Shown here piece by piece: positions 17,660 to 39,093 of a stretch of 64,000 nt of DNA. The notes under the pieces are model-generated. The model was given only the letters and a program-made list of their open reading frames with translations. It ran no database searches and was not told the origin of the DNA. Source of the DNA: Rhizobium leguminosarum bv. trifolii WSM1325 (lineage in GTDB: Bacteria; Pseudomonadota; Alphaproteobacteria; Rhizobiales; Rhizobiaceae); contig CP001623.1 of the NCBI GenBank assembly GCA_000023185.1, forward strand, positions 372,001-436,000, written 5' to 3'. Position numbers and translations under genes: made by a program. How positions within the stretch are numbered: position 1 is the stretch's first letter; each line of letters starts with the position of its first letter.

Positions 17660-18606
17660 CGGAGCCTCGGATTGGAAAGGATGGCGATGATATCGGCGAT
17701 GGTGATCAGGAGCAGATAACCCAGGCAGAAAATCATCGCGCAGCTCTGGATCAGCGGCAGGTCGCGGGTGGCGACGGCATCCAGCATCAGCTTGGCGATA
17801 CCGGGATAGTTGAAAATGGTCTCGACGATGATGACGCCTCCAAGCAGATAGGACAGCGAAAGCGCAACGGCATTGACGATCGGGCCGAGCGCATTCGGCA
17901 GCGCATGGCGAAAAACGATGCGCGGGCGGGACGCGCCCTTGAGCAATGCCATCTCGACATAGGGTGTGTTGAGCGTCTCGATGACAGCTGCGCGCGTCAT
18001 GCGGATCATCTGGGCCGAGACCACGAAGGTGAGGGTGATCACCGGCATGGCATAGACGCGCAACAGATCGGTCAGACTGTGGACCTCATTGGCGAAAGAC
18101 AGCGCCGGCAGCCATTTCAGATAGACGGCGAAGATGAGCGCGGCGGAGGTCGCGACCATGAACTCCGGCACGGAGATGACGCCGATGGTGATCACGGTGA
18201 CGATCCGGTCGTAAAGGGTGCCGCGCAGCATCGCCGCGGTGATCCCGAGCGTCAGCGCGATCGGCACGGAGAACAGCGCGGTGACGCCGGCAAGTTTTAG
18301 CGTATTGACGAAGCGGCCCGCAATGAGAGCGGCGACCGGCATTTCGTTGGCATAGGACGTGCCGAGATCGCCCTGCAGCAATCCGACGATCCAGCGCAGG
18401 AAACGAAAGAGCGCCGGTTCGTCGAGATGCATGGCCTTGCGCAGGCCTTCGACGGCTTCCGGCGTGGCGGCTTGGCCGAGCAGGATCGTCGCCGTATCTC
18501 CCGGCAACAGCGTTGTCGCAAAGAAGACGGCGAAGGAGACGATCACCAGGGTGATCACGGCGACGAACAATCTGCTCAGTACAAGGGATAAGACCTGGCG
18601 GTTCAC
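17656..18606 (-). CDS. Dipeptide-type ABC transporter permease (DppB-like)
   Basis: A 316-residue inner-membrane permease with six predicted membrane segments. It opens with LVLSRLFVAVITLVIVSFAVFF and the family's LLPGDTATILLGQAATPE segment. The coupling loop is seen as TPYVEMALLKGASRPRIVFRHALPNA, which contacts the ATPases. It ends in NPRLR overlapping the DppC-like start. It forms the translocation channel with that protein. Confidence 0.92.
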   Translation of the reverse strand: MNRQVLSLVLSRLFVAVITLVIVSFAVFFATTLLPGDTATILLGQAATPEAVEGLRKAMHLDEPALFRFLRWIVGLLQGDLGTSYANEMPVAALIAGRFVNTLKLAGVTALFSVPIALTLGITAAMLRGTLYDRIVTVITIGVISVPEFMVATSAALIFAVYLKWLPALSFANEVHSLTDLLRVYAMPVITLTFVVSAQMIRMTRAAVIETLNTPYVEMALLKGASRPRIVFRHALPNALGPIVNAVALSLSYLLGGVIIVETIFNYPGIAKLMLDAVATRDLPLIQSCAMIFCLGYLLLITIADIIAILSNPRLR

Positions 18607-30836: not shown

Positions 30837-31142
30837 CTACCTGGCCTCGCTGACGGGATAGATCCTGAAAATCCCAAGGCGGTTATCAGTCGTGATCGCT
30901 GCAATACCCGCCTCATATGCGGCGCGGACGATTGCCTCATGCAATTTCTCAGGCTCGCTCTCTCCGGTAAGGACCTCCAAACAGATGCTCACCGCCGTGA
31001 GAAATTCCTCACCGTCGTCGGTGGGCCATTCCTTCAGCAACAGTTGGGCAGCCTCGCGAGCGGTATGGATCACCTTGCGATCTTTCCCTTCCGCAAAAAC
31101 CAGAATTATCGTTGGGAAACTTTTGAACATATCGAATCTCAT
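30837..31142 (-). CDS. DUF982 protein
   Basis: A 101-residue protein that matches DUF982, a small family nearly confined to Rhizobiales: AREAAQLLLKEWP, the middle FLTAVSICLEVLTGE and EAIVRAAYEAGI. The start at 31142 has AGGGGG upstream. A C-terminal tail (residues 80-101) is longer than usual. It is the last gene of the unit that contains the ThiF and HExxH-like genes, 77 bp after the small protein gene. DUF982 has no known function. Confidence 0.75.
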   Translation of the reverse strand: MRFDMFKSFPTIILVFAEGKDRKVIHTAREAAQLLLKEWPTDDGEEFLTAVSICLEVLTGESEPEKLHEAIVRAAYEAGIAAITTDNRLGIFRIYPVSEAR

Positions 31143-31219
31143 TGCCCCCTGAACTCCGCGGGACGGCCAGTGCCAATGACGGGCCATGGTTTCGGACCGG
31201 GATTGGCCACACATGCTCG

Positions 31220-31468
31220 TCAACCATCTTCGGTGTCGTTTCGACAATCACGTCGCCTTTCTTCCCTTTGGTGGGAAGCAAGCTTGGCTTTTAGCTCGCG
31301 GGCTGCCGCCTCAAGAAGTCGCTTGAATTCTTCGGAGGTCACGCCATCCGCGCGCATCACCATGGCGATCAGTGGATCACCAAGAGCTTCGGTTATCGTC
31401 AGCTCATCGTTCTTTCCGGCAGTTGCCCCAACGGAGCAATGATATTCCGAGGAAAATAGCGCGATCAT
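31220..31468 (-). CDS. Unrecognised 82-residue protein encoded directly after thiF
   Basis: I do not recognise this protein. It starts at ATG 31468, 9 bp after the ThiF stop, with AAGG upstream; ATG 31474 is too close to that site. The N-terminal third is mixed and has a Cys (SEYHCSVGAT); the middle reads EALGDPLIAMVMRADGV; the rest is a long charged helix (SEEFKRLLEAAARELKAK) ending in a Cys-containing tail that stops at EDG. Its position right after an E1-like enzyme and its C-terminal glycine make it a candidate substrate or leader-type peptide, but it shows no beta-grasp pattern. It could also be a simple structural partner. Confidence 0.6.
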   Translation of the reverse strand: MIALFSSEYHCSVGATAGKNDELTITEALGDPLIAMVMRADGVTSEEFKRLLEAAARELKAKLASHQREERRRDCRNDTEDG

Positions 31469-31477
31469 GGACATACC

Positions 31478-32230
31478 TTACATTCGGGTTCTTTGGAGAG
31501 AGCGCAGCTTGGCCTGGTCGCCTTTGAGGTCCAATATCCATTGGCGTCCCCGGGCGAGCGAGTGTCTCGAAAGGCATTTTTGGACAATCTGCGACACGGC
31601 AAGGCCGGCGACCAATGGGCTGTCGACGGTAGCCTGCGGCGCGCGTAAGCCGTCGTCGGCCGTGACTTGGGTAGCGCAATGGCAGACGGAACATGCGTCC
31701 TCATGCACCAAGGCCAAAGGCCCTGCCATGCAATAGTTTGCAGAGCGGCCCAGATGCAGATGAGGCGGCAGGCCGGCTTCCAATGCCAGGCAGGCTGACA
31801 GGAGATCTTGGGTTGGACGAGAATCGCCGCCGGCGAGGATGAGGAACGGGTTATTGGCGTAGTTTGCGATTAACCGCAGCGCCGAGGCGCCTTCCGCAAA
31901 TTCCGGCAGCGCGAAGACAGTGGCCGAGAAACCCGCGGCCAGATGGGTCGCCAGCCTGTCCGTCTTCAGCCGGCCGAGATCAGCCTCGCATGCCCATGGG
32001 AGATGGTTCAAGTCGTTCTCATCGATACGATCCGCATCCACGAGAAGGAAACGACGCGCGCCGAGGGCCGCGAGCTGGATGGCGATCTGCGAGCCCAAGC
32101 CGCCGCATCCGATGATGACGAAGTCGATGTCGCCAAACAGTGCGATGTCGCGTTGCCGATAGCAAAGAGGCGCCAGGAAGGGGTCGTGATGATCGACTGC
32201 GGCGGGATCATATTCGTTCTTCGCCGGCAT
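31478..32230 (-). CDS. ThiF/MoeB/HesA-family E1-like adenylyltransferase
   Basis: A 250-residue E1-like protein. The ATP-binding Rossmann motif FVIIGCGGLGSQIAIQLA is followed by FLLVDADRIDENDLNH and DLGRLKTDRLATHL. Where ThiF and MoeB usually have NLNRQ, this has NDLNHL, so the conserved arginine is missing. One metal-type motif CSVCHC is present near the C terminus instead of two CxxC pairs. I prefer ATG 32230, with GGAGG 8 bases upstream. A longer form from ATG 32422, overlapping the previous stop, is possible, but that extra stretch contains a strong hairpin. It probably adenylates a carboxyl end; the target is unknown. Confidence 0.8.
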   Translation of the reverse strand: MPAKNEYDPAAVDHHDPFLAPLCYRQRDIALFGDIDFVIIGCGGLGSQIAIQLAALGARRFLLVDADRIDENDLNHLPWACEADLGRLKTDRLATHLAAGFSATVFALPEFAEGASALRLIANYANNPFLILAGGDSRPTQDLLSACLALEAGLPPHLHLGRSANYCMAGPLALVHEDACSVCHCATQVTADDGLRAPQATVDSPLVAGLAVSQIVQKCLSRHSLARGRQWILDLKGDQAKLRSLQRTRM

Positions 32231-32274
32231 ATCTGGAGCCTCCAACGAGACGACGAATGCAGGCCTGGTAACAT

Positions 32275-32327
32275 GGGGGCTCTGTTCCTCGACAGAATCG
32301 GCACTATTGCCGGTGAACAGAGCCCCC
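32275..32327. repeat. 13-bp inverted repeat (large stem-loop) ahead of thiF
   Basis: GGGGGCTCTGTTC at 32275-32287 is the exact reverse complement of 32315-32327. A second dyad (CGGCA at 299-303, TGCCG at 308-312 of 32 kb) sits in the loop. It lies in the 191 bases between the HExxH-like stop and the preferred ThiF start. No T-run follows, so it is more likely an RNA structure that affects stability or translation of thiF than a terminator. Confidence 0.65.
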
Positions 32328-32421
32328 CGGCCGCCCCGCCCCAGGCTGCGGGTGACAAGGTTCGGGAAGTCGACGGATACGCTGGCAGCCGCCGATAATC
32401 GTTTGGACCGATAATTGACCA

Positions 32422-33867
32422 TCACATCGCCTCCATCTCGCGGGGCGCAACTCCGCGGATCGTCGCGGCGTAGTGACCGTAATCCTCGCCCATCGCATAA
32501 TCGGGTGTCTTCACAATCACGTGGAATTTGCCGTCGTACCACAGGCTGACATTGTCGCCGCTGTCATCGATCTCTCGCCGGCCCATCCGAGGATCGATCG
32601 GCTCCTTGCCGCGCAGCAGCATCTGTCCGATATCCCAGGCTTGGCGATCGAGAACTCGCTGGCGCTCGGCAAGATGCGCCTGCCGGTGCGCAATGGGTTC
32701 TTCGGCAAGCAACTGGCTGACGAGGAACAAGATCCGACTACTCCAGGAAGGAATGGCGGCGATGTCTGGGAGGTCGAGGAGGACATCGCCGCCGAGACGT
32801 TCGATCCCTTTCCGAGCGATGTCGATAAGCGGGACTTGCCGCGCGGCATAGGCGATTATGAATGCCGCTTTCCGGGAGCGGCGCTTAAGATCCGCCTCGG
32901 TGGATAGGCATGCCATGCGCAAGGCGCACTCCCAGGGAATGGTGTAGGCCGTATGCAGGATGCTCTCGAGCGTCTGTAGGTCCTTCTTGTATGGGGAAAC
33001 ATATTGGAACTCGCCGGGCAGGGATGCCGCCGCCGAGGTCGTATAGAACCCGAGCAGGATATTCCCCGCCTCATGAAGCAGTTGGGCCGCTGTCGCGGCA
33101 TGATCGCCGACGCGTAATCTCTCGCTGGAAAGGACGATGAGCGCGCTGCCCGGCAATTCGTTCGAACTCGAAAAGGAGCACTGCGGTTCGCGCCGCACGC
33201 CAACGTAAAGCGTGTGCAGGCCGGCGATCAGACGCTGATGGCCATACTCGTCCAAGTCCGCGATCAATGCGAAGGCCTTCTCCAGATGGTCGGCGATTCG
33301 ATCCAATTGCGCATCGTCGGAGATCGGAAAGCCGGGCCGGGGATAGTCCGGCATGCATCGGCGCAGGAGGGCTTGCATGATACGGCTACGCGCCGGACTT
33401 TCGATGTGCATGAGGCCGATGCCGCAAGAGAGCCGGCACGCTGTCTGACGTTCGAGTTCAAGATCCGATGCGATCAGATCCGGCTGCAGATAGCGGCCGA
33501 CGACCTGCACATCGGGGCGGGCTGCCTGCCATTCCAGACTGCGCGCGAGCGCATCCATCCAGGCCGCAAGTACGGATGAACGGTAAGGGTCGGCGCGGAC
33601 CGGTCCGGCAACCGCTGGCGGAAGCTCCGGCAGGCGCGTGTATCGGCCATCTGCAAGGTCGGGGAAATAGCCTGACAGTGCCTCTACCCCAGCCGAACAA
33701 CCGGCGAGCTTCGAAGCCGCCGCAAGCGTGCGGCCATATTGGAAGCGTCGCTTCAAAAGGTTGCGTGTTGCCACGCGCTGGAGGGAGACGGAACTTGCCA
33801 TCAGGGGATTGCGCTTGAGCAGGAGGCGCGCCTCATCTGCCAACTGTTGTATGCGGGACGCGGACAT
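32422..33867 (-). CDS. Uncharacterised protein resembling HExxH-type peptide beta-hydroxylases
   Basis: A 481-residue protein from ATG 33867 (GGAGG upstream; the frame is open to 34005). The N-terminal 240 residues are unassigned and helical. Residues 262-315 resemble the HEXXH motif domain found with RiPP clusters: QLLHEAGNILLGFY, then YVSPYKKDLQTLESILHTAY, matching the family pattern of a metal motif followed by a Y-SPW-x-DPRPL...LHG segment. The motif here is H265-E266-A-G-N269, so the second His is replaced by Asn. There is no signal peptide. It heads the unit with thiF. The family call is from memory of the pattern and is moderate. Confidence 0.55.
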   Translation of the reverse strand: MSASRIQQLADEARLLLKRNPLMASSVSLQRVATRNLLKRRFQYGRTLAAASKLAGCSAGVEALSGYFPDLADGRYTRLPELPPAVAGPVRADPYRSSVLAAWMDALARSLEWQAARPDVQVVGRYLQPDLIASDLELERQTACRLSCGIGLMHIESPARSRIMQALLRRCMPDYPRPGFPISDDAQLDRIADHLEKAFALIADLDEYGHQRLIAGLHTLYVGVRREPQCSFSSSNELPGSALIVLSSERLRVGDHAATAAQLLHEAGNILLGFYTTSAAASLPGEFQYVSPYKKDLQTLESILHTAYTIPWECALRMACLSTEADLKRRSRKAAFIIAYAARQVPLIDIARKGIERLGGDVLLDLPDIAAIPSWSSRILFLVSQLLAEEPIAHRQAHLAERQRVLDRQAWDIGQMLLRGKEPIDPRMGRREIDDSGDNVSLWYDGKFHVIVKTPDYAMGEDYGHYAATIRGVAPREMEAM

Positions 33868-34021
33868 CGGCAGCCTCCGTGAGTTTGTCTTCGGGCGGAT
33901 CAAGGTTGCATCTCGGGCAAAAATGCCGGAGTTCGGGACGGCTTTGCCCGGCATCGGAACGTTGCGCGTCGTCGGTTGAGAGGCACTATTCCCCAAGGGC
34001 GTCATTGGCCCGCCAGTTTGG

Positions 34022-34054
34022 CGTTAAAAATCCGTAAAAATGACGTAAACAAAG
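34022..34054 (-). promoter_or_regulatory. Three 11-bp direct repeats, candidate SARP boxes
   Basis: Read on the minus strand, heptamers GTTTACG, TTTTACG and TTTAACG follow one another with 4-bp spacers, giving an exact 11-bp period (plus-strand units start at 34022, 34033 and 34044). SARP activators bind such heptamer direct repeats. They lie upstream of the HExxH-like gene and just past the terminator of the preceding unit. A similar pair precedes the SARP gene. Confidence 0.55.
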
Positions 34055-34057
34055 AAA

Positions 34058-34081
34058 AAGCCTCCTCGATCGAGGAGGCTT
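34058..34081 (-). terminator. Rho-independent terminator after the S8 peptidase gene
   Basis: A perfect palindrome with 12-bp arms (AAGCCTCCTCGA and its complement). On the minus strand it is followed by TTTTCTTTG. It closes the SARP-PAP2-peptidase unit and shows that the HExxH-thiF unit needs its own promoter. Confidence 0.85.
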
Positions 34082-34109
34082 AGAATTCTGGATAACGCAG
34101 CCGCAGCAG

Positions 34110-35804
34110 TCAGATCGCCAGAGCGGCCTCAACCGCCGCCCGCGCATTCGGCAGGCCCGACCCGAAGAAATAGACCGCGTCGAGAGCGTCCTCGCTTTCG
34201 GCGTTCATGCAATCTGCCGTCAGTTGTCTCGTTCCGGGTGCGACAATGGCGTCCAGGCGAGAGGCGGCTTTCAGAATTGACTTGACTTGAGGCCCCGAGA
34301 GGCGGTCACCGGGATTGTGGCGGCTTTTGTGGGCCCGCTGTATCAGGGCGCATAACCCGCCCACCTGCGCCGACGCGCCTGATGTGCCCCCGAAGGGGGT
34401 GTAGTATCCGCCCCCGATGCCCGGATTGGTACCGAACGGCACGATGGCCGACCACGGATCGGAGCCATGATTATAACCGAAAATCCCCGGCAGGTCCGTC
34501 GTCAGCAGCGAGAAGTGCGAATAGTAGTATTCCCGCGTTCGAAAAGCGCTGTAGTCGTGCTGCGCGGCAAATGGAGAAAGCCGGTCGAGGCGCAACTGAT
34601 GCCTGTTGAAGACCTCCCCGTCGTCAGAGGGGGAGACAACCGTCAATCCTTCGCCGTAATTGCTGTAGCCCGAACGGAAACCTTCGACGGTAACGGCTCC
34701 AACTGCAATGATGCCGTTGTTGTCGGCGGCAAGACTAGCCGGATAGATCAGCTGGCTCTCGCCACTGTTTCCTGCGGCGCAGACGATCGGGATGTGCCGG
34801 CTGATGGCGAGGATGAGTTGTTTGAGGACATGCCATGGGCGATCCGGATTAGAGCCTTTCTGCGCTGCCTTCGGCTCCAGTTCAGGCCCACCCTGATCCG
34901 CAACGGCAATGCGCGTGAACAGATTGGCGGCATCCTGGTTTTTCCATAATTCCAGGTCGGCCTTCAGTTCGTTCTTCGGGTCAACGATACTGTGTTTCGG
35001 GTCAGGCAGACCGCGCGGCAAGACGATCACGTCTGCTTTCTGAAGATAGGCATAAAGGAAGGCAGCAATGAACTGCCTGACATCGTCTTCGAAGGAGGTT
35101 CTGATCGAGATGAGCCTTGAGAAAGGATCAACGCCGAAATAGGGGATGACGTTGCGATTGCCGCTCGTGCGCAGCTCGTCGCCATTCCCGTAGAAGGCTC
35201 CTTCCGGCGGAAGGCTTGGCGTGCCTTCTTCCGCAACAACGGCGGGTTCGCCGACGATCAGCCCAGCGCAACAAGTACCATGCGACGCAAACAGCGATTC
35301 CGGATTGTAGAGCCGCCGGAGAACACCCTCCGACGCGGCGTATTCGGCAACCAGATCACCGAGATAGTCCCGGTCGTCGTTCGAAAGGCCGATATTGCCG
35401 AGCGGAGCGATGTCGAGCCCGGCAAAGAAGGCATGCCTTTCCTCGCGGTCGAAGGATGTGGTCGTCTCGAGAATTTCGAGCACGCGTGCGCCGTAACGAT
35501 GGGTCGTCAAATCGATTGACGCCTCCCGGTCAAGCCGGGTTGCCAGATTGGGATGATCCGGAGATACGCCGACATCGATCAGCGCGACCCGCGCGGGTCG
35601 CAGCGGGCCGGCGGAAGCGATGGCATCCCAGACCGTGCCGGTGATGAGGGGATCGGAGAGCGCGCGTGCGGAGCTCGCATCGGGCGCTGGAGGCGCCGGT
35701 GGAGCCGATCCGTATTCCGCGTCGACTACGCCAAGAGCAGTCAGGTGCCAGAGGTAATAGTAGTTGATCGGCGAGGGCTCAGGCATTTGTGTTTGATCCG
35801 TCAT
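34110..35804 (-). CDS. S8 (subtilisin-like) serine peptidase without signal peptide
   Basis: A 564-residue subtilase. The catalytic triad is complete: Asp77 in VALIDVGVSPDH, His175 in FASHGTCCAGLI, oxyanion Asn346 in CAAGNSGES and Ser475 in FGGTSGASAQVGG. No signal peptide or membrane segment is seen; the first 60 residues are Pro/Ala-rich with a SPINYYYLWHLTALG entry. It therefore probably works in the cytoplasm, unlike most secreted subtilases. I start it at ATG 35804 (AGGG upstream); a GTG at 35813 is in frame. It lies 33 bp after the PAP2 gene. In modified-peptide clusters such peptidases remove leader sequences, which would suit the E1-like neighbour. Confidence 0.9.
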   Translation of the reverse strand: MTDQTQMPEPSPINYYYLWHLTALGVVDAEYGSAPPAPPAPDASSARALSDPLITGTVWDAIASAGPLRPARVALIDVGVSPDHPNLATRLDREASIDLTTHRYGARVLEILETTTSFDREERHAFFAGLDIAPLGNIGLSNDDRDYLGDLVAEYAASEGVLRRLYNPESLFASHGTCCAGLIVGEPAVVAEEGTPSLPPEGAFYGNGDELRTSGNRNVIPYFGVDPFSRLISIRTSFEDDVRQFIAAFLYAYLQKADVIVLPRGLPDPKHSIVDPKNELKADLELWKNQDAANLFTRIAVADQGGPELEPKAAQKGSNPDRPWHVLKQLILAISRHIPIVCAAGNSGESQLIYPASLAADNNGIIAVGAVTVEGFRSGYSNYGEGLTVVSPSDDGEVFNRHQLRLDRLSPFAAQHDYSAFRTREYYYSHFSLLTTDLPGIFGYNHGSDPWSAIVPFGTNPGIGGGYYTPFGGTSGASAQVGGLCALIQRAHKSRHNPGDRLSGPQVKSILKAASRLDAIVAPGTRQLTADCMNAESEDALDAVYFFGSGLPNARAAVEAALAI

Positions 35805-35837
35805 GGTTGTCACCCTGTTGAGCAGCAGCTGGAGAAT

Positions 35838-36866
35838 TCAGACCCATTCGTCGTGTACGGCCGCGAACAAAGGACCGAACGCGTCGTGGAGGTAGGGAGC
35901 GAAGCGTCGGGCGAGATCTCGCCCCGCCTGCGTGTCGCTCGGATAGTGCAGGCCGGCCCATTCGCGATTTTCGGCGACGTTCTGGGCGATGCGGGCAAGC
36001 TCGTCGGTGGCCGGATGTTCCGGCAGGATTGTTGAGAACGCGAAGGCGATCGAAAAGCACTGGAACGAATGGTTGCTGGGATAGGACTCGTGGACGGGCA
36101 CGGCCAGCAACGGCCGCAGCAGGGGCTCGAACTGGTTTGGCCGCTGCCGGTTGAACTGGCTCTTGTAGATCAGTCCGACATATTCGCAGGCCGTCAGGAT
36201 CGCCTGAAAAAGGCCTTCCGTCTGCTCGAAACCGCCGAGATCCTCGATATACAATGCGCGTGTGAATTCCCCCACGGAGATCGTCGACTCGATTTGAATA
36301 TCGGGCAGGCGCCGCATGCGTTCGCGGTCGCGGCGTTGCATAGAGAGCAGTACCGTCGTTTCGAGGCGGGTATAATCCGGGCCGGGTGGCGGAAGTATAT
36401 CCAGCATTTCCCAGGTGAAGCGCCGCGCCGCGGTATAGGCGTTGCGTGACGGCTGCTGGTGCAGCCTGCGCAGCTCGAAGGAGGGGATAAGCTGCGACAC
36501 GCCGAGGCTGCCGCCGTCCATCGTCGACTTGTTCTTGTTCTTGTTCTTATTTTTGTTCTTGTTTTTGTTCAGCGACGCCTTGTTGAGCACCGACTTGTTC
36601 GCCACGCTTTTGTTGAGAACCGAGGCTACGGCCATCGTCGCCATCATCGGCCCGGCCAGAAGCGCTGCATCTTCACCGGTGCCGGGGAGCAGCGCAGGTT
36701 CGGAGGCTGCATCCGGTGCAGCCGGCGACGCACCGGCGAGAGGATCAGCACCGGTATCGTCCCTGGGTTCGCATGGAAGGACCGTATCCGGCTCAATCCT
36801 GAATTTATAACTGTTTAGAAATAAAACTAATTTTGATTGCGATTCGTGGGCAGTGTCCGCTTCCAT
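35838..36866 (-). CDS. Soluble PAP2-superfamily protein (phosphatase/haloperoxidase-like) with Asn-Lys repeat
   Basis: A 342-residue protein with a complete PAP2 active-site signature: K235-x6-R242-P243 (KSQFNRQRP), P-S-N-H266 (YPSNHSF), and R301-x5-H307-x3-D311 (REWAGLHYPSD). No membrane helices or signal peptide are evident, so it resembles soluble acid phosphatases or vanadium haloperoxidases rather than lipid phosphatases. Residues 1-117 are outside the fold: a SKLVLFLNSYKFRIEPDTVL segment, an Ala/Pro-rich linker and an NK-rich repeat at 82-113. GGAGG precedes the start. It is 41 bp after the SARP gene and 33 bp before the peptidase gene, so all three are co-transcribed. Confidence 0.85.
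   Translation of the reverse strand: MEADTAHESQSKLVLFLNSYKFRIEPDTVLPCEPRDDTGADPLAGASPAAPDAASEPALLPGTGEDAALLAGPMMATMAVASVLNKSVANKSVLNKASLNKNKNKNKNKNKNKSTMDGGSLGVSQLIPSFELRRLHQQPSRNAYTAARRFTWEMLDILPPPGPDYTRLETTVLLSMQRRDRERMRRLPDIQIESTISVGEFTRALYIEDLGGFEQTEGLFQAILTACEYVGLIYKSQFNRQRPNQFEPLLRPLLAVPVHESYPSNHSFQCFSIAFAFSTILPEHPATDELARIAQNVAENREWAGLHYPSDTQAGRDLARRFAPYLHDAFGPLFAAVHDEWV
36528..36623 (-). repeat. Coding microsatellite: SVLNK-type pentapeptides running into (NK)n
   Basis: Within the PAP2 gene, codons 82-113 encode SVLNK, SVANK, SVLNK, ASLNK and then about six NK pairs, written as alternating AAC and AAG/AAA codons. The 6-base unit keeps frame when it changes length, so the protein could vary in repeat number between strains without loss of function. 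Confidence 0.85.
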
Positions 36867-36907
36867 TGCAGCCTCCTTGCGCGATGATGTGAAGAATTGT
36901 CCGGGGT

Positions 36908-38695
36908 TCAGCGCAGCTTGGCGCCGGCCTTGAGCAGGCCGTCGATCAGGATCTGCCCGCCGCCTGTGTCAAGCAGCGGATAGCCGCTGCCGCGGAAGGC
37001 GTCGATGGAGAAACCGCCCTCGACTGCCTCAAGACGCTGCAGGTAATGCCGCGCGCCGCCGAGATCGTTGGAATGGGCATGACTGGAGGCAAGATAGCGC
37101 AGCAGGCTGTTGAAGTTCGGCCGTGCCCGCAGGGCTTCTTCGCCTGCAGATATGGCTGCGGCATGATCGCCTGCAAGCGCTGCCGCAATGCATTTGGTCG
37201 TATCGAAGTAATATTTATGCGGGCTGTAGACGCCGAGCTCTTGTACCCAACGCGCCATCGCCACCGCCTTGTCGGGCTGGCCTGCATAGCAGTGCAGCAT
37301 CGCGTAGAGGTCCCAACCGAGCGGCAGGGCCGGATTCAGGCGGATCGATTTTTCGAACAGGTTGGCCGCATAGTCGTATTCGCCGAACAGGAACGAATGG
37401 ACGTGGCCGACGAGCGCGAGCGACACGGAATTCTGCGGATCGAGTTCCAGCGCCTTGCGTGCATAGGCCTGGGCTTCCTCGATCAGATGGGCATCCAGCG
37501 CGTTGAAACGCTGGCCGACCTGGAAAGTCCGAATGAATGACAGCCAGGCAAAAGTCGATGATCGCGGCTGATACTGGATCTGTTCTTCCAGGCGCCGTTC
37601 CGCGTTGTCGAGGTCGTCGCGCGACAGCCGAAAGATCGCATTGACGGCGTCGATCAGGAGACCGTCTTGCGACAATCTGCTGTCGGTTGCCTGGATCTCC
37701 TCGAAATAGGCCAGTTGATCGACTGCCTGGCTGATCAGCGCAGCGGCGATGCCGAACTCGCCGCGCTCGAACTGCGTGCGGTTGATTGCCTGACTTCCCA
37801 GCCAATGAATGCGGTTGTTGATCAGGTGCTTCATCACCAGTTCGATCAGCACCATGTCACCATCAAACGTCAGGCGAAGCTGAAGGCATAGGGGAAGGCT
37901 GATTTGCTGTTCACTCTCTTCAATATGCGGCGAGGTGAACGAGAGGTCGGTGACGCCAAAGCCCAGCCCATCGATGATGGCTTTTGCAATGAGGTTTTGG
38001 AACCGTGTCGCAGCAATTTGCCCGCCCTCGCCGGCACCCACCACGATGGGGGACAGAAGAGCCATCATCCATCGCCAGTCACCGCCAACCCGCCGCCCAG
38101 AGGGACCGCTGCTGGCGATATCCACGGGTGGTTTGCCTGTTCTCGACGTATCCGGGGCGCCAGTTAACGGCAGCAGGGCGGAATGTTTGGCGATATCGCG
38201 GCTCGGCTGCTGTCGCGGCTCGAAGACGTCGTGGACTTGTCCTTCATCGAGACGGCGATACCAGTTTTGCCTTTCCAGCGCCAACCAGTCCTCGAATTCA
38301 GGATCGCGGATGTCGATACCTTCGAGCAATTCGTCGGTGACTTGATCCGCAGACCGCTCCGTCCGAACCACCAGGTCGGTATCGAGCGCCAGTCGGTCCA
38401 TATCCAGCCAAACGGTATTCTTATCCGCAATCAAGAGATCACGTGCCGGCCCCAGACTCTTATGAATGTCCAAAAGCGCCTGGCGTAGACTGGCTGCCGC
38501 CTGGTCGTCGGAGCGATCGCTCCATAACTTGTCCCTAAGCCAGATTCTCGAGCGCGAGCCCCGGGTGGACAATGCAAGCATTGCCAAAAGAGCCTGTGCC
38601 TTTTTGGATTTCGGAGCAACCGACCGCCCCCCGGCGTCCACAAGGGCAAAGGGCCCGAGCAGGAACATCCGAAACGGATATTGCTCCTTGTTCAT
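36908..38695 (-). CDS. SARP-type transcriptional activator with TPR domain
   Basis: A 595-residue regulator. Residues 8-110 form the OmpR-like winged helix of SARP/BTAD activators (FRMFLLGPFALVDAGGRSV, KKAQALLAMLAL, RIWLRDKLWSDRSDDQAAASLRQALLDIHK), followed by a short BTAD-like segment. The C-terminal half is helical TPR-type repeats (ALELDPQNSVSLALVGHV, SIRLNPALPLGWDLYAMLH). I start at ATG 38695 before the fold; the frame is open to 38899. It is the first gene of the PAP2-peptidase unit. Direct repeats upstream of it and of the HExxH-like gene suggest that it activates both. SARPs in Gram-negatives are rare outside pathway-specific clusters. Confidence 0.85.
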   Translation of the reverse strand: MNKEQYPFRMFLLGPFALVDAGGRSVAPKSKKAQALLAMLALSTRGSRSRIWLRDKLWSDRSDDQAAASLRQALLDIHKSLGPARDLLIADKNTVWLDMDRLALDTDLVVRTERSADQVTDELLEGIDIRDPEFEDWLALERQNWYRRLDEGQVHDVFEPRQQPSRDIAKHSALLPLTGAPDTSRTGKPPVDIASSGPSGRRVGGDWRWMMALLSPIVVGAGEGGQIAATRFQNLIAKAIIDGLGFGVTDLSFTSPHIEESEQQISLPLCLQLRLTFDGDMVLIELVMKHLINNRIHWLGSQAINRTQFERGEFGIAAALISQAVDQLAYFEEIQATDSRLSQDGLLIDAVNAIFRLSRDDLDNAERRLEEQIQYQPRSSTFAWLSFIRTFQVGQRFNALDAHLIEEAQAYARKALELDPQNSVSLALVGHVHSFLFGEYDYAANLFEKSIRLNPALPLGWDLYAMLHCYAGQPDKAVAMARWVQELGVYSPHKYYFDTTKCIAAALAGDHAAAISAGEEALRARPNFNSLLRYLASSHAHSNDLGGARHYLQRLEAVEGGFSIDAFRGSGYPLLDTGGGQILIDGLLKAGAKLR

Positions 38696-39093
38696 GCGAT
38701 CCACCGGCCCCGCCCCCGCTGCCTCCGATACGCTCGTTTGGCGGCCGGAAAACCTGGCATCCAGGGGCCAGTCTGCCACAACTTCGGCTCCTGGCAAGCA
38801 ACCGGGAAGGGAAACCGGGATTGCGAAATGTAAATCTATGCTATGGCGATGATCGAACTGAAGCATAACCGGTTGAAATCCCTCTGCGTAACTTCGCAAA
38901 CCGGCCGTAGCATCCTGCCGTCAAAGCAGCGTCAAAGAAATGTTGTTTGGGCACCGTAATTTTGCGGGCATCCGCCAAAGGCTGCGGAGTACTTAGAACG
39001 ATGTGTCGGTGTTGCTCCAGCGGGAGCATCGACCGTGGCTCCCGATCATCCAGCGCCGGGATGATGTCCCGGCGCTCTTTTGTTTTCCTGTAG
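38696..39093 (-). promoter_or_regulatory. SARP promoter region with paired TTTGACG repeats
   Basis: No gene is supported in these 398 bases. At 38919-38940 two 11-bp units stand side by side; on the minus strand they read TTTGACG, 4 bases, TTTGACG. This matches the TTTNACG repeats before the HExxH-like gene and points to autoregulation. A hairpin (AGCGCCGGG arms) lies at 39052-39076. Confidence 0.5.
39052..39076. terminator. Hairpin downstream of gabD-like gene
   Basis: A 9-bp GC-rich stem (AGCGCCGGG and its complement) with a 7-base loop, 18 bases past the stop of the minus-strand aldehyde dehydrogenase. The T-rich tail (CTTTTGTTTT) is on the plus-strand side, so it is a poor canonical terminator for the minus-strand operon and may mainly stabilise its 3' end. 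Confidence 0.5.

Follow-up and report, generated by a model that had tools for sequence, protein, structure and literature searches.

We analysed a locus of seven genes in a 64,000-nucleotide stretch of DNA, hereafter called the window, from plasmid pR132501 (RefSeq NC_012848.1) of the clover-nodule bacterium Rhizobium leguminosarum bv. trifolii WSM1325. Our reading is that the locus consists of two units, a conserved operon of three genes encoding a SARP-type regulator, a PAP2 phosphatase-like protein with a repetitive N-terminal tail and an S8 subtilase, and the decayed remains of a cluster for a ribosomally synthesized and post-translationally modified peptide (RiPP), and that the peptidase may act on the tail of the PAP2 protein. 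We assign a probability of about 0.45 to this reading taken as a whole; the division of the locus into these parts is by itself close to certain. The repeat tract of the PAP2 protein is the most unusual feature of the locus, and it was missing from the initial annotation of this DNA, in which the seven genes were described as one possible modified-peptide or protein-tagging system.

Two units within the seven-gene locus

The seven open reading frames (ORFs) are arranged on the minus strand from 38866 down to 30837, in the order SARP, PAP2, S8, HExxH-like, ThiF, small protein and DUF982, and they lie between catabolic operons, as had been described before. All seven are real, and RefSeq annotates the same genes, several with starts later than those of the longest ORFs (Table 1). 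The PAP2, subtilase, ThiF and DUF982 proteins score over their Pfam cut-offs, and the window SARP, so named in RefSeq, shows TPR matches and a weak AfsR match (E 0.0017). The gaps between the genes of the SARP-PAP2-S8 operon are 41 and 33 nt.

We surveyed related loci (L numbers below) with PAP2, the most conserved of the proteins, as the anchor and the window proteins as the sole queries, in a collection of one genome per species; genome searches covered Pseudomonadota, and the best 80 of 143 related loci were examined. PAP2, S8 and SARP were present in 80, 79 and 78 of these 80 loci, respectively, and their order and strand were kept in 77, the misses being L065 and two loci near contig ends (L069 and L087). 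The flanks of the three genes are unrelated between loci, and the co-occurrence exceeds chance. HExxH and ThiF genes, on the other hand, were found in only 28 of the 80 loci, and 17 loci had the genes for the small protein and DUF982. When the HExxH protein was searched against 72,556 plasmid records, the 68 matches belonged to Rhizobium (62), Neorhizobium (5) and Sinorhizobium (1). Sinorhizobium sp. B11 carries all seven genes, flanked instead by methyltransferase and biotin genes.

A predicted intrinsic terminator 3' of S8 separates the SARP-PAP2-S8 genes from the HExxH and ThiF genes. Its hairpin has a minimum free energy of -18.9 kcal/mol (z -3.27), and one of 200 shuffles was as good. The terminator scan as a whole returned six sites against a shuffle mean of 7.1, which is no excess, so the claim depends on the stem and position of this hairpin. 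Since the HExxH and ThiF genes are lineage-restricted, mostly degenerate (see below) and located beyond a terminator, we rejected a single pathway of seven genes. The earlier idea of one co-occurring system stands for SARP, PAP2 and S8, which recur with unrelated flanks in place of the catabolic genes, but not for the HExxH and ThiF genes. The soluble PAP2 and signal-less subtilase of that description also agree with our results, as a simple hydropathy scan, which is not a signal-peptide predictor, showed no strongly hydrophobic stretch at the N-termini of the PAP2, S8 and HExxH proteins.

A wider PAP2 sample combined plasmid matches with matches in whole genomes, taken at the level of the class, of the phylum and of one additional family. 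In this sample, a TPR-containing regulator, a repeat-bearing PAP2 protein and mostly a peptidase are clustered in Alpha- and Betaproteobacteria (for the latter, L174 and L181), and the module is carried on plasmids of rhizobia, Phaeobacter and others, where it is annotated piecemeal only. The regulators are of several kinds, including SARP, winged-helix and class III cyclase proteins, and several of them contain TPRs.

The PAP2 protein and its N-terminal repeat

Class A acid phosphatases carry the signature K-x6-RP, PS(G/N)H and R-x5-H-x3-D. The catalytic signature is complete in the window PAP2 protein, with K235, R242-P243, S264-N265-H266, R301, H307 and D311 invariant or at least 90% conserved among 25 homologues. 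The best profile matches were class A acid phosphatases, with 7f17 (E 1.2e-26) and also 7f18 as the closest solved structures, followed by a PAP2-family protein and bromoperoxidases at about 1e-9 (best haloperoxidase 9.1e-10) and then by LpxE. The initial annotation had left the choice between a haloperoxidase and a phosphatase; judged by these profile scores the protein is nearer to the class A acid phosphatases, and the haloperoxidase assignment is not preferred because the acid phosphatases score far better.

The N-terminus of the window PAP2 protein contains (NK)7, and NK tracts of 4 to 11 copies persist in near relatives. More distant homologues contain other perfect tracts, with 33 units in total; the units seen include (NR), (GR), (AK), (TK), (GNT), (GNA), (SNT), (GGA), (GGF), (SGV), (AGV), (TGV), (NSF), (GSF), (GGL), (DAR), (AGR), (DGM), (NAE) and (GGNWF). 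When we scored 60 PAP2 matches of the wider sample, leaving out queries derived from the scored loci themselves, the repeat and a regulator or peptidase neighbour coincided exactly, with both present in 33 and both absent in 27. The Fisher p value is about 1e-17, which is no true probability because the rows are related by descent. This table was drawn from 79 loci (L101-L152 and L185-L211, with some few other matched places left without a locus number) after leaving out the window with two close NK triads (L101, L131, L132), six duplicate places (L185-L188, L191, L211) and ten loci with a PAP2 match below the filter (L116, L117, L122, L125, L126, L201 and L207-L210). As a control, among 1485 ORFs of the 80 loci, tracts were found in 58 of 64 PAP2 proteins, 0 of 77 regulators, 0 of 74 S8 proteins and 3 of 1270 others, the three being minus-strand ORFs that overlie the PAP2 repeat, and a search of the PAP2 catalytic halves gave none in 179 (some genes represented twice).

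The repeats are perfect in the protein but scrambled in the DNA. When 113 distinct tracts were compared, neighbouring units had 0.788 of their bases in common, against 0.833 expected under independent codon draws, and for the window (NK)7 the corresponding values are 0.86 and 0.89; the expectation was taken from codon use in the remainder of each gene, which is a small sample and in L061 has no codon variation, so that the z-score of that row carries no meaning. The (DAR)7 and (AGR)11 tracts consist of 7 and 11 different DNA units, respectively. A perfect peptide over scrambled codons indicates that selection at the amino-acid level, not DNA copying, maintains the repeats, and the codon variety within the tracts led us to reject DNA microsatellites as their origin.

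The unit itself changes between lineages. A quick tree of the catalytic part, with 93 rows and several long branches, showed at least 35 state changes when 'none' was treated as a state (the tracts of L065 and L067 are imperfect, and L047 was unscored). The whole tract differs even between close cores, namely TGV and AGV at 69% identity (L148 and L166) and GGF and NSF at 66-67% (L129 and L162). At core identities of 70% or more the unit was the same in all 1300 pairs, many of them near-identical. Copy number shifts among close relatives, for example Phaeobacter piscinae has one NSF unit fewer than P. gallaeciensis. In such changes of unit the whole tract is altered in a concerted way, and its codons are nevertheless scrambled.

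Possible action of the peptidase on the tail

Most perfect peptide repeats either stem from DNA slippage and then decay, or represent a structural motif that is fixed. A perfect repeat over scrambled DNA, with a different motif from lineage to lineage, points to selection that reads the periodicity itself, and the neighbouring peptidase is an obvious candidate for this selective force. The third gene encodes a subtilase in most loci (in L167 it is present though missed by the initial search), and the catalytic D, H, N and S of S8 are identical in all 75 aligned proteins (the window and 74 from the 80 loci). In five loci of one clade a Peptidase_A4 protein takes the place of S8, recognised by Pfam in L153 and L157 and by similarity in L154-L156. 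From the constant linkage together with this swap of peptidase class we infer, tentatively and at somewhat less than even odds, that the PAP2 tail is a target of the peptidase. In this mechanism, the regulator would switch on the PAP2 protein and the peptidase together, the cytosolic peptidase would trim the periodic tail of its partner, trimming would activate, release or turn over the phosphatase, and drift of the repeat unit would then keep it matched to the peptidase. Such matching is possible in the A4 loci, where every unit fits [A/T/S][G/S]N, a pattern different from the units of S8 loci.

Several observations weigh against this reading. First, the association of A4 with its units is confounded by descent. 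Second, no peptidase was recognised adjacent to the regulator and repeat-PAP2 pairs of L158, L159, L160 and L194, and the peptidase may thus be dispensable. Third, the subtilase-like partners of L161-L166 are divergent; a motif search without alignment found the Ser in six of six but the Asp and the His in one of six each, and the L164 partner has no Pfam match at all. Finally, two plasmid loci, L178 and L183, have a regulator that is transcribed divergently. Two of the pairs without a recognised peptidase have other frames after PAP2: an M24-like peptidase frame, recognised by eye, follows the (DGM) PAP2 gene at L159:8100-9500 and may be a third peptidase class or chance, and a membrane-protein-like ORF without Pfam match occupies the peptidase position after the (DAR) PAP2 gene at L160:8243-9310. 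A PAP2-S8 fusion (P0069) was not used as support, because its junction looks like a frameshift.

The tail might instead be structural, serving as a disordered spacer, a polyanion or surface binder or an assembly segment, with the peptidase and regulator devoted to general turnover or to another substrate. Most units indeed consist of small or polar residues, and each of the five dipeptide units, (NK), (NR), (GR), (AK) and (TK), contains one basic residue beside a small or polar one. However, neither charge nor hydrophobicity is conserved, as (DAR), (NAE), (GGF), (GSF) and (GGL) illustrate, while strict periodicity is, and a mere spacer should not remain perfectly periodic over scrambled codons. 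We consider this explanation unlikely, though it deserves serious weight.

It is also conceivable that the tract itself is the product, so that the PAP2 protein would be an enzyme-fused multi-copy precursor from which the peptidase excises identical short peptides, perhaps modified by PAP2 first, with the unit as a variable core. The unit varies while the enzyme is conserved, even between cores 66-69% identical, the copies are identical in protein and codon-scrambled, the peptidase is of exchangeable class, and SARPs often control natural-product clusters. Nevertheless, a product made of units of 2-5 residues would be unusually short, and the constancy of the units in every pair at or above 70% core identity is slower change than typical cores show. 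Furthermore, the 13 largest ORF families after the core three, each in at least 7 of the 80 loci, showed neither an exporter nor a tailoring enzyme whose position is constant from clade to clade, and an ABC-ATPase cluster in 19 loci lies at scattered distances. We therefore regard such a product as improbable, and marginally more doubtful still is its extension to an undescribed class of systems in which a TPR regulator induces a PAP2 protein bearing a lineage-specific multi-copy peptide as its N-terminal tandem repeat, cut by S8 or A4.

A defence or stress module, in which the TPR regulator would sense a trigger and the peptidase would free a PAP2 effector directed against lipids or nucleotides, seems very unlikely: the presence of a TPR protein with a peptidase and a hydrolase is reminiscent of protease-activated effectors and a SIR2-family gene lies near one plasmid locus (L178), but for the window proteins the PADLOC matches were limited to E1-E2 models on ThiF and a marginal one on SARP, and metabolic genes make up most of the annotated flanks seen.

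Probable remnants of a RiPP cluster beyond the predicted terminator

The window HExxH-like protein scores 71.9 bits against TIGR04267 (NCBIfam; cut-off 40), but its motif reads HEAGN and so departs from HExxH. A full cluster is found at the same place, 3' of S8, in two relatives, Rhizobium sp. BK602 (L037) and Peteryoungia ipomoeae (L041). It encodes a radical S-adenosylmethionine (rSAM)/SPASM protein, two precursors of about 107 amino acids, an HExxH protein with HEAGH, a protein like S-adenosylmethionine decarboxylase (AdoMetDC), a methyltransferase, two small proteins, ThiF and a double methyltransferase, and the window HExxH-like protein is 66% identical to its counterpart in L037. All four precursors have an NHLP-like leader and the same C-terminus, DGNCGCA-L-x-GPGGVL, which contains the GNCGCA core; those of L037 score 15.2 and 18.8 bits against NF038399, below the cut-off of 40, and the rSAM protein scores over the Pfam cut-off and over no NCBIfam maturase cut-off shown. 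With precursors, an rSAM/SPASM protein and tailoring enzymes side by side, this cluster is, by its gene content, an apparently undescribed RiPP candidate. In L037, the two tandem small proteins between the methyltransferase and ThiF (17724-17951 and 17986-18162) are similar and both end in DLVAN.

At the window locus, neither a precursor nor an rSAM gene is present, which leaves it without the precursor and core modifying enzyme of a RiPP cluster, and searches of the whole genome found no precursor of the L037 type (the positive controls L037 and L041 were detected) and no rSAM at E<=1e-40. Among 38 HExxH loci (some genomes counted twice), the rSAM, precursor, AdoMetDC and two small genes occur only in the two full clusters. 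Deletion scars and traces of the putatively lost genes are visible in the reduced loci. Eight Neorhizobium loci retain about half of the double methyltransferase, and in Neorhizobium ThiF the first ~15 methyltransferase residues are fused to ThiF residue ~105 (0 of 2000 shuffles in each of five loci). The start of the window small protein likewise resembles the double methyltransferase start (0 and 2 of 2000 shuffles as high). The C-terminal CKVC of the window ThiF falls in another frame, and the CxxC is lost.

When the metal motif was compared over 36 loci (duplicates L009, L017 and L018 removed; HEAGN of L070 read by eye), HEAGH was intact in both full clusters and in 5 of 34 reduced loci. 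The others had HEAGN or HEAAN (10), HQAGH (6), R/G-E-x-G-x (10) or a truncated gene (3). In L012, L015, L034 and L042 the HExxH or ThiF gene is truncated or frame-broken, which is consistent with decay of remnants. For eleven Rhizobium pairs, dN/dS was 0.41-0.60 for ThiF and 0.23-0.36 for HExxH, compared with 0.08-0.14 for S8, 0.10-0.19 for PAP2 and 0.10-0.38 for SARP; the intact pair gave 0.21 for ThiF and 0.24 for HExxH with dS saturated. Constraint on ThiF is therefore weakened in Rhizobium, whereas Neorhizobium shows no such relaxation; HExxH has changed little, and both genes depart from neutrality.

Based on these observations, we suggest that the HExxH and ThiF genes are very probably remnants of the rSAM/NHLP-like RiPP cluster that is complete in the two relatives. 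The tie to a modified-peptide pathway made in the initial annotation was sound, and the full gene set for such a pathway is seen in L037 and L041 but not in the window. Some results count against remnants without function. Five reduced loci retain HEAGH, the resemblance between the window ThiF start and AdoMetDC reaches weak significance only (3 to 14 of 2000 shuffles), ThiF is not relaxed in five Neorhizobium pairs (dN/dS 0.10-0.29; HExxH 0.14-0.33), and HExxH in reduced Rhizobium and Neorhizobium pairs stays near the 0.24 of the intact pair. Since neither gene is neutral, the remnants may still keep a function. The series of remnants around the full cluster suggests how such clusters decay.

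HExxH enzymes can hydroxylate Gln runs, according to PMC12636437, which makes an Asn-rich tract conceivable as a substrate. A single live pathway, with the (NK) tract or a small protein of the locus as the substrate of HExxH and ThiF, is nonetheless scarcely credible: the HExxH and ThiF frames are open in most Rhizobium loci with dN/dS below 1, but 30 of 58 NK-tailed loci among the 80 have no HExxH match (e.g. Phyllobacterium, Aminobacter and Aliiroseovarius; L069 is too short to tell), the motif is lost or the gene truncated in 29 of 34 reduced loci, and the missing precursor and rSAM and the terminator between the units speak against it as well.

Further features of the loci

Table 1. Positions of the features (window coordinates unless a locus is given)
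Feature	Position	Strand	RefSeq tag	RefSeq start	Basis
SARP/TPR transcriptional regulator, operon gene 1	36908..38866	-	RLEG_RS24905	38866	RefSeq, TPR matches, weak AfsR match
Soluble PAP2 acid-phosphatase-like protein, N-terminal repeat tract, gene 2	35838..36866	-	RLEG_RS24900		PF01569
(Asn-Lys)x7 tract within PAP2 gene	36528..36569	-			sequence; three different 6-nt units
S8 subtilase, gene 3, no apparent signal peptide	34110..35804	-	RLEG_RS24895	35804	PF00082
Intrinsic terminator 3' of S8 (predicted)	34058..34081	-			10-bp stem, 4-nt loop, T tail
aKG-HExxH-family protein, probable RiPP-cluster relic	32422..33867	-	RLEG_RS24890	33867	TIGR04267
Degenerate metal motif HEAGN	33061..33075	-			HEAGH at equivalent site of intact clusters
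ThiF/E1-like protein, probable relic	31478..32422	-	RLEG_RS24885	32230	PF00899
Small protein, first ~15 residues like double methyltransferase start	31220..31468	-			shuffle-tested similarity
DUF982 protein, probably unrelated neighbour	30837..31130	-	RLEG_RS24875	31130	PF06169
Complete RiPP cluster, Rhizobium sp. BK602	L037:12932-20789

Other genes recur near the module in particular groups. In the (NR)-type Rhodobacteraceae loci L080, L084, L085, L089, L091, L094 and L096, a second, larger subtilase-family protein lies about 3 kb upstream of PAP2 (that of L080 matches Pfam PF00082), with a regulator-like minus-strand ORF between these upstream subtilases and the module. Six Phyllobacterium loci (L044-L049) have a LuxR-type regulator about 0.8 kb downstream of S8 (GerE for L044), and the plasmid loci L173 and L184, of Phaeobacter gallaeciensis and Parasedimentitalea marina, have alike runs of small minus-strand hypothetical genes after S8.

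Comparison with known systems

No description of the module or of the tracts was found in the full-text literature searched (most subscription journals lie outside its coverage), in PADLOC for the window proteins or in NCBIfam. The component families are known, and the set of regulator, repeat-tailed PAP2 protein and peptidase is apparently undescribed. The proposed partnership of PAP2 and peptidase can be tested with two purified proteins, and the neighbouring full cluster of L037 and L041 is a new RiPP candidate in its own right. No known anti-phage system was matched by the window proteins in PADLOC, and no E2 or ubiquitin-like partner domain was found among the seven proteins with Pfam, NCBIfam and PADLOC profiles.

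MccB, an E1-like peptide adenylating enzyme, is the best solved-structure match of the window ThiF, and PaaA is also listed. Unlike in these systems, no short precursor gene was recognised at the window locus, and the C-terminal CxxC is lost. The window HExxH-like protein shares its TIGR04267 match with the aKG-HExxH peptide hydroxylases (PflC/PosC of Pseudomonas; ChlBH and BpmH), but the locus has HEAGN and no precursor, rSAM or MNIO gene. According to PMC12636437, characterised HExxH enzymes act on NHLP precursors in Pseudomonas, and the L037 and L041 clusters resemble those PflC/PosC systems in having an HEAGH protein beside NHLP-like precursors; they differ in having rSAM and methyltransferases, where pfl has MNIO-nitroreductase instead.

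The PAP2 protein shares catalytic residues with the class A non-specific acid phosphatases (PhoN; 7f17 and 7f18), which are its best PDB matches. In contrast to them, the module PAP2 protein has no apparent signal peptide, carries an N-terminal repeat and is accompanied by a TPR regulator and mostly by a peptidase, and none of the 27 sampled PAP2 matches without such partners contains the repeat. Vanadium-dependent haloperoxidases also share the PAP2 catalytic residues, and PF22778, precomputed on many of the PAP2 homologues, is a further point of likeness to them; their profile similarity to the module protein is weaker than that of the acid phosphatases. Finally, in enzyme-fused RiPP precursors of the borosin-like kind, a core-like segment is fused to an enzyme domain. 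The module protein is like these in the fusion of a repeat to an enzyme, and unlike them in that the enzyme is PAP2 rather than a methyltransferase, the repeat is a short N-terminal tandem and the peptidase is a separate protein.

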